NCBI GenBank assembly: GCA_005880795.1
Contig: VBGP01000029.1
Coordinates: 1 to 50,067 of the forward strand
Direction of reading: 5' to 3'
Source of the DNA: Chloroflexota bacterium
Lineage (GTDB): Bacteria > Chloroflexota > Dormibacteria > Dormibacterales > Dormibacteraceae
DNA: 50,067 nucleotides
This document shows, in pieces, positions 42,794 through 48,231 of this stretch. Position numbers and translations under genes: made by a program. The notes below the pieces were generated by a model that was given only the letters and a program-made list of their open reading frames with translations, made no database searches and was not told the DNA's origin. How positions within the stretch are numbered: the stretch's first letter is position 1; each line of letters begins with the position of its first letter.

Positions 42794-43981
42794 CTAATAG
42801 GCGCGCGCTAGCAATTCGGAGACGTGCAGGACCTTCATAGCTGAGCCGCGTTTGCGCAGCCCTGCCTCGAGCTGCATCTGGCATCCCGGGTTGGCCACCG
42901 CCACGACGTCGGCCCGCGTTGCCGCCAGGTCGTCGAGCTTTTCCTGCAGGATGCGATTCGACATGTCCGGCTCGAGCGTGCTGTACAGACCCGCGGCGCC
43001 GCAGCAGATGTCGGCGTGCCGCATCTCGACCCAGTCCACGCCGGGTATCGCTCGGATGAGGTCGCGCGGCTGCTTCTTGATGCGCTGCGCGTGCGCGAGG
43101 TGGCACGCGTCCTGGTAGGTGACTCGCATCTTCACGTCACGTTTGGGTTCGGGCAACCCGGCTTCGGCCAGCCACTCGCTGAGGTCCTTCACGCGGTTTT
43201 TCAGCGCGGGGTAGAAGTCTTTGAGATGAGCGCCGCATCCGGCCGAGTCGACCACCAGCGCATCGAACTGGCCAGCATCGTAGATACGGCTGTTGGTCTC
43301 GCGCAGTCGTCCGGCGCCTTCGAGGTCGCCGTTGTGCGCGAACAGCGCGCCGCAGCACTGCTCGTCAGGCGGGAACCACACCTCGCACCCCGCCAGCTGC
43401 AGCAGCCTGACCGCGGCGTCATGCGACTGCGGGTACAGGATCGGCATCACACAACCGACGAGAAATGCGACGCGATGCTTTCGCGGGCCGATGGCCGGCG
43501 CGACGTTGCTTGCCGGCGGCTGAAATCGCGGCGCGAGCTTCGGCAGCATGCGGCCCGAGCGTGAGACGGACGTCAGCCGCAGCTTCTGCGCGAGGCGCGT
43601 CGCGTCGCCGGCGGCGCGCAAGCGGCCTCGATGCCCGACGAGCTGGCGCAGCGCGGCCCGGCTCGCGGCCCGCTTGATCGAGGGACGGCGTTGATCCTCG
43701 ACGTCGGCTCGTCCGGCCTCGATGATCCGGCCGTATGGCACACCCGATGGACAAACGCCCTCACAGGTGCGGCAGCCGAGACAGAGGTCGATGTGCTTCA
43801 CCTGCTCTTCGTCGAACTCCAGCGTCCCGCGCTTCCACTGAGTCATGAGGTAGATGCGGCCGCGCGGCGACTCGGTCTCGAGTCCGGTGACGCGGAAGGT
43901 TGGGCAGGCGTCGAGGCAGAGGCCACAGTGGACACAGGTGGCGAGGTCGTCATCGGACAGCCGCGAGAAGGGGGCTGTCAA
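42794..43981 (-). CDS. glcF: Glycolate oxidase iron-sulfur subunit
   Basis: This 395-aa protein has two 4Fe-4S motifs (CVHCGLCLDACPTF, CLGCRTCEGVCPSG) and two CCG domains (SAGCGAHLKDFYPAL and ADICCGAAGLYS with preceding PDEQCCGALFAHNGDL). It passes electrons from the flavin subunits to quinone during glycolate oxidation to glyoxylate. It starts with a 4-nt overlap with glcE and ends the operon. Confidence 0.93.
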   Translation of the reverse strand: MTAPFSRLSDDDLATCVHCGLCLDACPTFRVTGLETESPRGRIYLMTQWKRGTLEFDEEQVKHIDLCLGCRTCEGVCPSGVPYGRIIEAGRADVEDQRRPSIKRAASRAALRQLVGHRGRLRAAGDATRLAQKLRLTSVSRSGRMLPKLAPRFQPPASNVAPAIGPRKHRVAFLVGCVMPILYPQSHDAAVRLLQLAGCEVWFPPDEQCCGALFAHNGDLEGAGRLRETNSRIYDAGQFDALVVDSAGCGAHLKDFYPALKNRVKDLSEWLAEAGLPEPKRDVKMRVTYQDACHLAHAQRIKKQPRDLIRAIPGVDWVEMRHADICCGAAGLYSTLEPDMSNRILQEKLDDLAATRADVVAVANPGCQMQLEAGLRKRGSAMKVLHVSELLARAY

Positions 43982-45057
43982 ACGACGTACCTGCCGGGAT
44001 TCAATATGCCGTCCGGATCGAACGCCTTCTTCAGGCGTCGCATGATGTCGATCGTGGGCGGGGCTGCTCCCCAGGCGCCCACCTCGCGCATGAAGTCGTC
44101 AGGCGCTGCGAGCATGACGAGCGTTCCGCCCGCGGCCTCGGCTTTCTCGCGAATGCCGCGCACCACGCTGGAATCCGCACCGATCGCCCAGTGCGCGACA
44201 CCGACTCCGGGTGATGCCCACCATCGATCGTGTTGGGGCAGGGTCTCCACGATCCTGCGCAGCCCGGACCGGGGGATCGCGATCCTGGCCCACTTTTCGG
44301 GGCCGCTGCGCGAGTGCTTCTCCCAGACCACACTGTCGGCCTCATCCCACTCGAGCCCCGACACGACGCGGTCGACGGCCTCCGGACTGCCGAGAAATCG
44401 CGCGAGCACTCGGCCGTCGGACGAGAGTTCGACCGCCGACGGCGCAAGCGGCGTCGACAACGCCTCGTCCGCCGCCTCCCAACCGCCATCGTTCGCAACC
44501 GTCACGTCATGCAGCGGTTTCGGAAAGACCTTGAACGATGCGGCGACGATCACGCCCAGCGAGCCGAGCGCTCCGTAGTGCAGCTTCATCATGTCGTAGC
44601 CGCTTACGTTCTTGACCACCCGGCCGCCGCCGCTTGCCAGCTTGCCGTCGGGCATCGCGACCCGGATGCCGATCAGGAAGTCGCGTGGTGATCCGTAACG
44701 AAACCGCAGCGGGCCGGTCCATCCAGTCGCGAGCAGCCCGCCGATCGTGTGGCCGGGCGAGTGGAATGGATCGAGCGGAAGAAACTGGCCCGCCTTCGCA
44801 AGATGCGCCTGCAGCGCATCCAGCGCGATCCCGGCCTCGACGCTGACCACCATGTCGGACTGCGAGTGCTCGATCACCCGGTCGAGGTGGGTGGTGTGCA
44901 GGAGCACATCCGCACGCTCGACCGGATTGCCCATCCCGCTTGCCCTGCCGCCACCGACCGGGATCACCGCCAGCTTTGCGTCGGCCGCTTCATGCAGGTG
45001 GCGCGCCAGCTCCTCAGCTGTGGCCGGCTTCTCGACCGCGGGTTTCGTCACCACCAT
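43978..45057 (-). CDS. glcE: Glycolate oxidase FAD-binding subunit E
   Basis: This 359-aa FAD-linked subunit has KLAVIPVGGGRASGMGNPVE, GHTIGGLLATGWTGPLRFRY and SGGGRVVKNVSGYDMMKLHY, then a C-terminal half ending in FDPDGILNPGRYVV. ATG 45057 overlaps glcD by 10 nt with GAGG in good position; the long upstream frame antisense to glcD is a shadow. It lacks the full C-terminal domain of GlcD, as is usual for GlcE. Confidence 0.92.
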   Translation of the reverse strand: MVVTKPAVEKPATAEELARHLHEAADAKLAVIPVGGGRASGMGNPVERADVLLHTTHLDRVIEHSQSDMVVSVEAGIALDALQAHLAKAGQFLPLDPFHSPGHTIGGLLATGWTGPLRFRYGSPRDFLIGIRVAMPDGKLASGGGRVVKNVSGYDMMKLHYGALGSLGVIVAASFKVFPKPLHDVTVANDGGWEAADEALSTPLAPSAVELSSDGRVLARFLGSPEAVDRVVSGLEWDEADSVVWEKHSRSGPEKWARIAIPRSGLRRIVETLPQHDRWWASPGVGVAHWAIGADSSVVRGIREKAEAAGGTLVMLAAPDDFMREVGAWGAAPPTIDIMRRLKKAFDPDGILNPGRYVV

Positions 45058-46487
45058 TTCGCCTCGATGGCGAGCCCGGTGCGGCCCGCGAGGTGGACCG
45101 GCTTTCGCGAAGGGTCGGGGAAGATCTTGCCCGGGTTGAGGATGCCGGCCGCGTCGAAGACGTCCTTGACCCGATGCATTGCATCCAGGTCGTCCTCGCT
45201 GTAGATCCAAGGCATGAAGGCGCTCTTTTCCAGGCCGATCCCGTGTTCGCCTGACAGCGCGCCGCCCAGCTCGACGACCGCGCGAAGCATCTCCTCGCCT
45301 GCGGCTTCGACCTGGTGCAGCACGTCGCGATCGCGGAGGTCGAAAAGGATGTTGGGGTGCAGGTTGCCGTCGCCCGCGTGAAACACGTTCGCCACGGGCA
45401 GCTTGTAGTGCTCGCCAATCTCGCCCACTGCCGAGAGCACCTGCGGCAATCGCGACCGGGGCACCACGCCGTCGTGCAGGTAGTAGTTCGGCTTGATGCG
45501 GCCCAGCGCGCCGATCGCGCCCTTGCGGCCCGCCCAAAGCAGCTCGCGCTCGGCGGGGGTCTGCGCTTCGCGCATGGCATAGCCGTGGTTGTCGGCCAGG
45601 ATCTTGCTGATCGCGGCGGTCAGCTCGCGGGTCGACTCGGCGATGCCGTCGACCTCGACCAGCAGGACAGCGCCCGCGTCGGTCGGATAGCCCGCGTGGT
45701 AGTGGGCCTCGACAGCGCCGACCGTGACGTTGTCCATCATCTCCAGGGCAGCCGGCACGATCCCGTGGCCGATGACGGCGGACACGGCCTGGCTGGCCGA
45801 CTCGATGCTCGGGAAAGCCGCCAGCAGGGTCGCGATGCTGGGCGGGATGCGAAGCAGTCGGACCTTGATCTTCGTGATGGCGCAGAGCGTGCCTTCGGAG
45901 CCGACGAGCACCCCGCACAGGTCGAGGCCGACGTGGTCCGGTGCGTCGCCGCTGACCCAGTGCACGCTGCCGTCGGCCAGCACCACCTCCATGCCCAGCA
46001 CGTGGTTGGTCGTCACACCGTAGTAGAGGCAGTGCGGCCCGCCGGAGTTTTCGGCCGCGTTGCCTCCGATGGTGCAGGCCTTCTGGCTCGAAGGGTCGGG
46101 CGCATAGAACAGCCCGTGCTGCGCCGCAACCAGGGACAGCTCCTGGTTGACCACGCCAGGCTCGACCAGGGCGGTCATGGCGACCTGGTCGATCTCCAGA
46201 ATGCGGCGCATGCGGGTGACCTGCAGCGCGATTCCGCCGCGGATGGTCACCGCGCCGCCGGACAGGCCAGTGCCGGCTCCGCGCGGCACGACCGGGATGT
46301 GGTGTCGGGCCGCGACCTTGATCACCGCCGACACATGCTCGGTCGACGATGCGAGGACGACCGCGTCAGGCATGGCTCCCTCGATCGAGCCGTCGCGCTC
46401 GAAGATGCGCAGGTCGTTGGGCGCATCGATCACCGACTCCCGCCCGACGATGCGGCGCAGCTCTTCGATCACGGACTTGGGGAGCAT
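45048..46487 (-). CDS. glcD: Glycolate oxidase subunit D (FAD-linked)
   Basis: This 479-aa flavoprotein has PVVPRGAGTGLSGGAVTIRG (FAD PP-loop), DPSSQKACTIGGNAAENSGG, VFHAGDGNLHPNILFDLRDR and SGEHGIGLEKSAFMPWIYSE, the full VAO-type layout. It carries out glycolate (or D-lactate) oxidation with GlcE and GlcF. It begins overlapping the stop of a 112-aa unknown gene by 1 nt. D-lactate oxidation is an alternative substrate. Confidence 0.92.
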   Translation of the reverse strand: MLPKSVIEELRRIVGRESVIDAPNDLRIFERDGSIEGAMPDAVVLASSTEHVSAVIKVAARHHIPVVPRGAGTGLSGGAVTIRGGIALQVTRMRRILEIDQVAMTALVEPGVVNQELSLVAAQHGLFYAPDPSSQKACTIGGNAAENSGGPHCLYYGVTTNHVLGMEVVLADGSVHWVSGDAPDHVGLDLCGVLVGSEGTLCAITKIKVRLLRIPPSIATLLAAFPSIESASQAVSAVIGHGIVPAALEMMDNVTVGAVEAHYHAGYPTDAGAVLLVEVDGIAESTRELTAAISKILADNHGYAMREAQTPAERELLWAGRKGAIGALGRIKPNYYLHDGVVPRSRLPQVLSAVGEIGEHYKLPVANVFHAGDGNLHPNILFDLRDRDVLHQVEAAGEEMLRAVVELGGALSGEHGIGLEKSAFMPWIYSEDDLDAMHRVKDVFDAAGILNPGKIFPDPSRKPVHLAGRTGLAIEAKWW

Positions 46488-46825
46488 CAGGCGATCGGCG
46501 CCTCGAGCTCGGGATTGCGCTCGAAGGCCTCGAAGCGACGCGTCATCGCGCCGGGAAAGCCAGCTGCTTCGGTCGCTTTTGCTCCGACGATGAGGAGATC
46601 AAGCCAGGGCGCGCATTCTTCGTCGGACGGCATTCGGTCCGCGCGCTCGAAGATCGCCTCCTGGATGCGGCTGTGCGGTGACACCTGGATCGTGTACCAG
46701 ACGGATAGCCCATCTGATGTGACCACATGGTGTGACTCGTCCACCTTGCGATTGATGGGAAGTCGCATCGGCCTCGCTTCGGCCGCGGCGCGGAGTCGGG
46801 CCGCCTCGCCCTCGATGTCGGTCAC
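46487..46825 (-). CDS. Unknown 112-aa protein, first gene of glycolate oxidase operon
   Basis: This is not a recognised family. Starting at GTG 46825: TDIEGEAARLRAAAEARPMR, then VDESHHVVTSDGLSVWYTIQ and a helical end. No Cys motif or membrane segment. The start is set by TAAGCT exactly 7 nt upstream on the minus strand; an alternative ATT at 46855 would extend it by ten residues into the divergent gene. The stop touches the glcD ATG, so it is co-translated with the oxidase and may be a partner. Confidence 0.6.
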   Translation of the reverse strand: MTDIEGEAARLRAAAEARPMRLPINRKVDESHHVVTSDGLSVWYTIQVSPHSRIQEAIFERADRMPSDEECAPWLDLLIVGAKATEAAGFPGAMTRRFEAFERNPELEAPIA

Positions 46826-46832
46826 GAAGTCC

Positions 46833-46842
46833 AGCTTAAACT
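46833..46842. promoter_or_regulatory. Bidirectional -10 element between two divergent leaderless genes
   Basis: The 10-bp AGCTTAAACT contains TAAACT (plus, 46837-46842) and TAAGCT (minus, 46838-46833), overlapping by 2 bp. Each ends 7 nt before a GTG: 46850 on the plus strand and 46825 on the minus strand. The intergenic space is only 24 bp and nearly symmetric, so one element could serve both genes. Confidence 0.6.
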
Positions 46843-46849
46843 CGAACTC

Positions 46850-47836
46850 GTGAATGGCCGGGGTCGCGTGGAGGCTGCGCTCGCCATGGACGTGGCCGAC
46901 CGGCCGCCCGTCGGCGCGTGGGGCCATACGTATCACGAGGAGTGGTCGCCCGAGGCGCTGGCCGCGATCACGGTGGAGCGGGCCCGGCGACTCGGCTGGG
47001 ACTTCGTCAAGTTCCAACCGCGCGCGAGCTGTTTCGCGGAGGCGTTCGGATCGGTCTATCACCCATCGGGCCACCGCCTTCGCGCGCCGATCCTGATCCA
47101 GCCCGCGGTGCCGGACCTGGAGGCTTGGACGTCGGTAAAGATGGTCAATCCCAAAGCCCTCGACGACCAGGTCGAGTCGATCGCGATGGTCGTACGGGAG
47201 CTGGGAGACGAGGTTCCCGTGATCCAGACGGTGTTCAGCCCGATCACGGTCGGCGGTTACCTCGTCGGCAAGTCGCAGTCGCGCGTCGTACGAGAGCTGC
47301 GGAAGCATCCCGAGACGGTTGGACCCGCGCTGGACCGGATCGCGGTGGGCCTGCTCGATTTCAGCTGCCGCTCGGTCGAGGCCGGAGCCGCGGGAATCTT
47401 TTACGCGATCTCGGGCTACGCCGGTCGCAACGTCATGCGTGAGGACATTTACCGCGACCTCGTCCTGCCCTATGACCTGGCGGTGCTGGAGGCGCTGCCG
47501 AAAAAGTCGTGGTTCAATGTGCTCCACCTGTGCGGGTCGAATCTCAACTTCGGGCTGGCGCGCGACCTGCCATCTCATGTCGTGAGCTGGTCGATCCACA
47601 ACCAGGGCAATCCGTCCCTTGCCGAAGGGCGTGACATCGCCGGTCGGGCCGTGATGGGCGGGCTGAGCCAGCGCGCAACGCTCGTCTACGGGCCGCCGCC
47701 GAAAATCGAGGAGGAGGCGCGCCGTGCGGTGGAAGAAACCGGCGGTCGCGGCTTGCTGCTGGCGCCCGGCTGCTCGGTTCCCCCGCGCGTGCGGGAAACC
47801 AATCTGGCGGCGATGGTCACGGCGGTCGCCGCATGA
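46850..47836 (+). CDS. Uroporphyrinogen-decarboxylase-like protein
   Basis: This 328-aa protein of the UroD/MtaA superfamily has VKFQPRASCFAEAFGSVYHP, VIQTVFSPITVGGYLVGKSQ, NVLHLCGSNLNFGLARDLPS and LLLAPGCSVPPRVRETN. It lacks the UroD substrate loop (F.RQAGR), and its HLCG and APGC motifs resemble methyltransferase-type members that bind a metal. GTG 46850 follows TAAACT by 7 nt. It is coupled (ATGA) to a VOC protein gene. True role unknown; not heme synthesis. Confidence 0.8.
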   Translation: MNGRGRVEAALAMDVADRPPVGAWGHTYHEEWSPEALAAITVERARRLGWDFVKFQPRASCFAEAFGSVYHPSGHRLRAPILIQPAVPDLEAWTSVKMVNPKALDDQVESIAMVVRELGDEVPVIQTVFSPITVGGYLVGKSQSRVVRELRKHPETVGPALDRIAVGLLDFSCRSVEAGAAGIFYAISGYAGRNVMREDIYRDLVLPYDLAVLEALPKKSWFNVLHLCGSNLNFGLARDLPSHVVSWSIHNQGNPSLAEGRDIAGRAVMGGLSQRATLVYGPPPKIEEEARRAVEETGGRGLLLAPGCSVPPRVRETNLAAMVTAVAA

Positions 47837-48231
47837 GCCGCGTGGAGGGGCTCGCGGAGATCGTGCTCTGGGTCGCCGACATGGAGGCGGCGCTCCAGTT
47901 CTATCGCGACCAGTTCGGGCTCGAGATCATGTCGCCGCCCACGATGCCGAACAAGTTCCTGATGGTCGCCAAGCCAGGCGGTATCCCAGAGATGATCGTG
48001 CTGGTCCCCCATCCCCATCCAACCGACTATTTCCCGCGACACAAGGAAAAGCGGGTCCTGCACCACCTTGCGTTCCGGGTCGACCGCCGCTCGTACGACG
48101 AGCTGGAGACACGCTTCATCGAAGCCGGGGTCGAGGTGCGACACGGCGTACACCCGGTGCTGAAGGGTGTGCGCACCTTTTATATCGACGACCCCGACGG
48201 TAACGAGGTCGAGGTGATCGGCCCGGTCTGA
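47833..48231 (+). CDS. VOC-superfamily (glyoxalase/dioxygenase) protein
   Basis: This 132-aa single VOC module has GLAEIVLWVADMEAALQFYR, HHLAFRVDRRSYDELETRF and FYIDDPDGNEVEVIGPV. It has metal-ligand candidates His (HLAF) and Glu (EVEVI). ATG overlaps the UroD-like stop by 4 nt, so the two are co-expressed. Enzyme type cannot be read from sequence. Confidence 0.85.
   Translation: MSRVEGLAEIVLWVADMEAALQFYRDQFGLEIMSPPTMPNKFLMVAKPGGIPEMIVLVPHPHPTDYFPRHKEKRVLHHLAFRVDRRSYDELETRFIEAGVEVRHGVHPVLKGVRTFYIDDPDGNEVEVIGPV

Follow-up and report, generated by a model that had tools for sequence, protein, structure and literature searches.

The question raised by this locus is how two divergent operons can be expressed when their GTG start codons, 46825 on the minus strand and 46850 on the plus strand, leave, as predicted, only 24 bp (bases 46826-46849) between them. 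Ordinary divergent promoter pairs normally comprise two separate -10/-35 sets with their leaders, and often an operator. The present locus resembles such pairs in that two operons are transcribed outwards from a single short intergenic region, and differs from them in that one 10-bp core within 24 bp would have to serve both operons. The explanation which we favour, at a probability of roughly 80%, is that the core AGCTTAAACT acts as a single promoter of the housekeeping (sigma70) type, consisting of a -10 element only and active in both directions, that its two mRNAs are leaderless or nearly so, and that it arose once by fusion. The features discussed are collected in Table 1; the window is the whole stretch of 50,067 nucleotides that was analysed, and all positions refer to it.

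Table 1. Genes and putative promoter elements of the divergent locus, with their positions in the window
Feature	Position	Strand	Basis or remark
GlcF-like subunit	42794-43981	-	Pfam, NCBIfam
GlcE-like subunit	43978-45060	-	Pfam
GlcD-like FAD oxidase subunit	45048..46487	-	PF02913, PF01565
112-aa protein with GTG start, heading the GlcDEF-like operon	46487..46825	-	ORF
Near-palindrome of 16 bp, TCCAGCTTAAACTCGA	46830..46845	.	both hexamers and the adjoining 3 nt of each discriminator
Putative shared bidirectional -10 core AGCTTAAACT (pattern ANNNTANNNT), 10 bp	46833..46842	.	sequence and conservation
Putative -10 hexamer TAAGCT (read 46838 to 46833), 112-aa-protein gene	46833..46838	-	ends 7 nt before GTG 46825
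Putative -10 hexamer TAAACT, UroD-like gene	46837..46842	+	ends 7 nt before GTG 46850
URO-D superfamily protein, 328 aa, GTG start	46850..47836	+	PF01208, 127.6 bits
VOC/glyoxalase-fold protein	47833..48231	+	PF00903, 50.7 bits

The GlcDEF-like genes fit glycolate oxidase GlcDEF in domain content and order, but the GlcD-like protein reaches 476.3 bits against a curated cut-off of 567.9 bits (TIGR00387), and the GlcF-like protein 239.5 against 333 (NF008434). The UroD-like protein stands nearer to MtaA/CmuA-type methyltransferases than to HemE (PDB 4ay7, E 2e-14), and is below the cut-off for hemE (TIGR01464, 30.4 vs 302.95 bits) as well as that for MtaA/CmuA (TIGR01463, 81.8 vs 235.4 bits). 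Because these curated cut-offs were missed, the Glc and UroD names are used here as likenesses. For the 112-aa minus-strand protein no Pfam or NCBIfam match was found. It occurs in 36 of the 42 genomes of the family, and its gene lies upstream of GlcD in almost every locus that extends far enough. Its AlphaFold model has a mean pLDDT of 85; Foldseek returned nothing for this model at E <= 0.001, and the best structural match of a second look was 2qzi, a protein of unknown function (Z 6.0, rmsd 3.4, 75 aligned).

The VOC gene directly follows the UroD-like gene in most relatives. In the window its ATG overlaps the UroD-like stop codon (ATGA, 47833-47836), which suggests translational coupling of the two genes. 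The order GlcF-GlcE-GlcD-112-aa gene, with the URO-D and VOC genes pointing away from it, was observed in nearly all relatives whose sequence reaches far enough. An earlier note on this DNA had proposed that the arrangement couples glycolate oxidation to a UroD-like/VOC pair. What suggests this coupling is the gene order; GlcD and GlcF score below the glycolate-oxidase cut-offs, and the 112-aa protein matches no known family. The organism is an uncultured member of a soil lineage in which public relatives bear the label Chloroflexi or Candidatus Dormiibacterota.

A re-reading of the sequence showed the 24-bp spacer, both GTG starts, both hexamers and both 7-nt spacings described in the earlier note to be exact. 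The -10 boxes had been called mirror images there; their overlap and symmetry were borne out, but the symmetry is rotational and the hexamers are inverted. It is also longer than had been stated, the near-palindrome covering 16 bp. The hexamers have one TA step, T46837-A46838, in common. The gap of 7 nt on both sides corresponds to the TANNNT ~6-9 nt before the start codon by which leaderless genes are recognised, and the symmetric, co-located -10 elements on both strands are those of a bidirectional promoter. The commonest arrangement of such promoters, the 18-bp TANNNTA, which is usual and not obligatory, is not the one present here, the hexamer offset being 4 and not -1. No -35 element was detected at the site by a sigma70 scan. 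In a pattern search of the 3.22-Mb genome the symmetric 16-bp pattern TCNAGNTTAANCTNGA was found without mismatch in one copy only, that at 46830-46845, and its one-mismatch matches in the genome form no evident common set.

The conservation of the core and of its two spacings in relatives, a check proposed in the earlier note, was then compared. All 25 core-bearing species, from 6 genera, keep the pattern ANNNTANNNT, with gaps of 6-11 nt on the plus side and 7-10 nt on the minus side, and A46833, T46837, A46838 and T46842 are identical in every one of them. The mean identity of these species to the window is 0.95 in the 16-bp core versus 0.62 in the flanks, where the best 16-bp stretch reaches 0.74. 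The start-proximal bases of the spacer (46826-46828 and 46847-46849) diverge, and the start codons switch between ATG, GTG and TTG with their positions relative to the core kept. The plus-side gap is 6-8 nt (7 in most, and 11 in one species, G020), and the minus-side gap reaches 10 nt in several species; if transcription starts 6-7 nt past the hexamer, gaps of 10 nt (minus) and 11 nt (plus, G020) would leave a leader of 3-5 nt. The sequences of the relatives thus support the promoter reading of the shared core. Conservation also extends beyond the TANNNT positions, to C46832, T46836, A46839-46840 and C46843-G46844, and an operator overlapping the promoter is therefore possible.

A block of this kind might also be conserved as protein. 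If the minus protein began further upstream, the core would encode a conserved peptide, EFKLDF, and the minus frame indeed runs on without a stop well upstream of the GTG, as a 370-aa ORF in the window and likewise in several relatives. This reading is hardly credible in view of the other genomes: the minus ATG of G016 is immediately preceded by an in-frame stop, stops are found 4-12 codons upstream in G036, G005, G012 and G014, and where the gap differs by 1-2 nt the core falls into another frame. Moreover, the TTT at 46840-46838 is never TTC, though the lineage is GC-rich, and those relatives in which the two genes are separated begin near the same DIxxEAARLR without EFKLDF. Because of the in-frame stop of G016 and the frame-shifting gap changes, the block is regarded as conserved as DNA and not as peptide, and the coding reading was rejected on the in-frame stops and the frame shifts across the core.

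The separated relatives, from eight genera, also bear on the origin of the shared core. In genera g8, g13 and g14 (L043, L044, L046, L048) the minus gene and the UroD-like gene stand about 380-410 bp apart, and in genera g2, g3, g5, g6 and g7 the two genes are likewise apart. The minus (glc-side) gene of the separated relatives has its own TANNNT at a gap of 6-9 nt in all ten genomes, the hexamer being TATGAT, TATCAT, TACCAT, TAAGAT or TAAGCT. The UroD-like gene has its own in 8 of the 10, as TAAACT, TAGACT or TACACT (TANACT). The chance of a TANNNT at such a gap, taken from the background gaps, is about 1.7% per gene. In L048 the intervening ~380-410 bp encode a short redoxin-like protein, the name being taken from a reading of the frame.

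These data are relevant to the possibility that one direction only is leaderless, the other gene being transcribed with a normal leader from a promoter inside its neighbour, so that the symmetry would be a by-product of the self-complementary TA in the -10 box. TANNNT carries little information and TA is self-complementary, and a GGA 4 nt before the minus GTG could act as a weak ribosome site. Such a one-sided arrangement is nevertheless unlikely, since both hexamers are invariant in the 25 species, each gene has a TANNNT of its own when separated, and the plus side has no conserved Shine-Dalgarno sequence.

In the UroD tree the species with the shared core form one branch (100/99), except for one secondary split, G023. 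A further insertion was found in G035, where the minus gene is displaced and the whole palindrome is kept before the UroD-like gene. The simplest history that fits the tree would start from a separate leaderless promoter for each gene; these would have fused once, and the shared core would have been split again on two later occasions. In G023 (L129:477-1550) the former halves of the promoter are separated by a lipoprotein-like 357-aa ORF, and each side still has its own hexamer, TAAGCT on one and TAAACT on the other.

The entire palindrome retained by G035 despite its displaced minus gene also speaks for a different function of the site, namely that of an operator: the 16-bp near-palindrome would bind a dimeric regulator of both operons, and the promoters would lie elsewhere or merely overlap it. 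In the same sense, symmetry and conservation go past the hexamers into the TC..GA arms, and the full symmetric 16-mer occurs once in the genome. As the explanation of the core, however, an operator is improbable: separated relatives have lost the palindrome and keep one TANNNT per gene at leaderless distance, most separated genera keep the plus-side ACTC without the palindrome, and the other 11 sites in the genome have ANNNTANNNT alone, without the arms.

The reading of AGCTTAAACT as a bidirectional promoter with two leaderless outputs also draws on the leaderless signature of the genome. In 1.21 Mb of it, TANNNT at a gap of 6-9 nt precedes 99 of 612 transcription-unit head genes, about 10 being expected. 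The counts at gaps of 6, 7, 8 and 9 nt are 38, 18, 18 and 25 against ~2.6 per background gap, and among these head genes the peak is sharpest at gap 6. Because of this peak 6-9 nt before the starts, leaderless or nearly leaderless expression looks common in this genome, as it is in Actinobacteria and Deinococcus-Thermus (PMC3160421, PMC3890552, PMC12340547). Within the window, TANNNT at leaderless distance was also observed near positions 966 (+), 30408 (+) and 12290 (-), that near 966 being a TATAAT 7 nt before a GTG.

The pattern CAY-gap-ANNNTANNNT-gap-RTG, with gaps of 6-9 nt, has 18 matches in the genome. The raw counts are not enriched (18 vs 15 for the reversed core), and it is the coding context alone that separates real sites from chance. 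Of the distinct ANNNTANNNT sites with starts on both sides that were checked, 12 of 14 lie between divergent ORFs of coding composition, the reversed core giving 2 of 14. The genome thus contains at least 12 sites of the TA-sharing kind flanked by divergent coding ORFs, that at 46833-46842 and at least 11 elsewhere, and the present locus is not a lone case.

In the 1.21 Mb, A...TA...T with starts at a gap of 6-9 nt on both sides lies between two divergent coding ORFs in 8 of 11 cases, whereas for the 15 remaining symmetric cores 73 of 1277 do so (Fisher P = 2.5e-8), and for cores of the same composition 2 of 22 (P = 4e-4). Among the divergent pairs with a leaderless hexamer on both genes in this same part of the genome, half (8/16) have offset 4, in which the TA is shared. 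Every other offset has at most one double-leaderless pair, and offset -1, the 18-bp arrangement, has one; the excess at offset 4 is partly expected from ease of origin, because sharing the TA needs 4 fixed bases and not 6. In 316 kb of G032, from another genus, together with 80 kb of G005, one of the 6 pairs was TA-sharing, the pairs being few.

A second shared -10 core of this genome, ATTCTAGAGT, putatively double-leaderless, was found at C160:41065/41090 (L092:1495-1535; G000:C160:41063-41093), flanked by fumarase-like and Ppx-like genes, both named from reading the sequences. Most relatives keep ATTCTAGAGT and some have ATTGTAAGTT, which also fits ANNNTANNNT; in L252 and L254 an insertion splits the site, and each half is kept. 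Ten more ANNNTANNNT sites between divergent coding ORFs were noted in this genome (L078, L079, L080, L081, L082, L084, L087, L088, L090 and L091), standing at about 1495-1535 of their loci. On balance it appears probable that the family uses a distinct minimal class of divergent promoter, defined by ANNNTANNNT with TA-sharing hexamers, which would give two leaderless outputs from 22-28 bp with starts ~23-25 bp apart. Each genome would contain a dozen such loci or more, which would arise where two separate leaderless promoters were joined.

The mechanism proposed for the core at 46833-46842 is drawn from known -10 recognition. RNA polymerase, presumably with a housekeeping sigma factor, would open AGCTTAAACT whichever way it faces, because the TA common to both hexamers is self-complementary and supplies positions -12/-11 on both strands. 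Since TA is self-complementary, a TANNNT needs only one more A, 4 bases upstream of its first T, to form a hexamer on the opposite strand. Transcription is predicted to start 6-7 nt past the hexamer, that is on the start codon or the base in front of it (GTG 46850 on the plus strand, GTG 46825 on the minus strand), which would place the two start sites 23-25 bp apart. The outputs would be a UroD-like/VOC mRNA in one direction and an mRNA of the 112-aa gene and the GlcDEF-like genes in the other. Because both orientations melt the same bases, the two initiations would exclude each other, while any influence on promoter opening would act on both, so that the two operons may be co-regulated.

Bidirectional transcription from promoters whose -10 element is symmetric is known and frequent in bacteria, according to two papers that report the work of Warman et al. 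2021, doi 10.1038/s41564-021-00898-9 (PMC10268837, PMC12825309). They are defined, in PMC10268837, by divergent start sites, one on each strand, at a distance of 7-25 bp. In the usual arrangement, as given in these papers, the starts are 18 bp apart and -7T and -11A are reciprocally paired (TANNNTA). The present site is like the known promoters in that the symmetry of the -10 element would allow starts both ways and drive a divergent gene pair, and in that the 23-25 bp predicted here from sequence lies inside the published range of 7-25 bp. It is unlike the usual 18-bp arrangement in that the hexamers share -12/-11 (ANNNTANNNT), the starts are predicted to be 23-25 bp apart, and both products are predicted to be leaderless.

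Leaderless genes with a TANNNT 6-9 nt before the start codon were described in Actinobacteria and Deinococcus-Thermus (PMC3160421, PMC3898074, PMC3890552, PMC12340547). The hexamer, its distance and the common GTG starts are the same here, where a -35 element was not found either. Those reports treat promoters singly, whereas one core stands here between two divergent genes; the words 'divergent' and 'bidirectional' are absent from PMC12340547 and PMC3160421. No paper joining bidirectional (widespread divergent) transcription with leaderless transcription was found in a search that covered the literature in part, which makes this weak evidence. What appears to be new is a double-leaderless, TA-sharing variant of the known bidirectional promoter, with starts predicted to be 23-25 bp apart and not 18.

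If the transcripts start as predicted, the locus would be about the smallest divergent regulatory unit for two operons, with a single melting site common to both directions and a leader on neither side. Outside the core, or a site overlapping it, a regulator would find hardly any space. The symmetry rule of bidirectional promoters would be extended from the 18-bp to the TA-sharing arrangement, and the relatives would provide a traced case of two promoters that fused and later split. With the pattern as a simple rule, promoters of this kind could also be recognised in the sequences of uncultured bacteria, and the start codons annotated there could be corrected.
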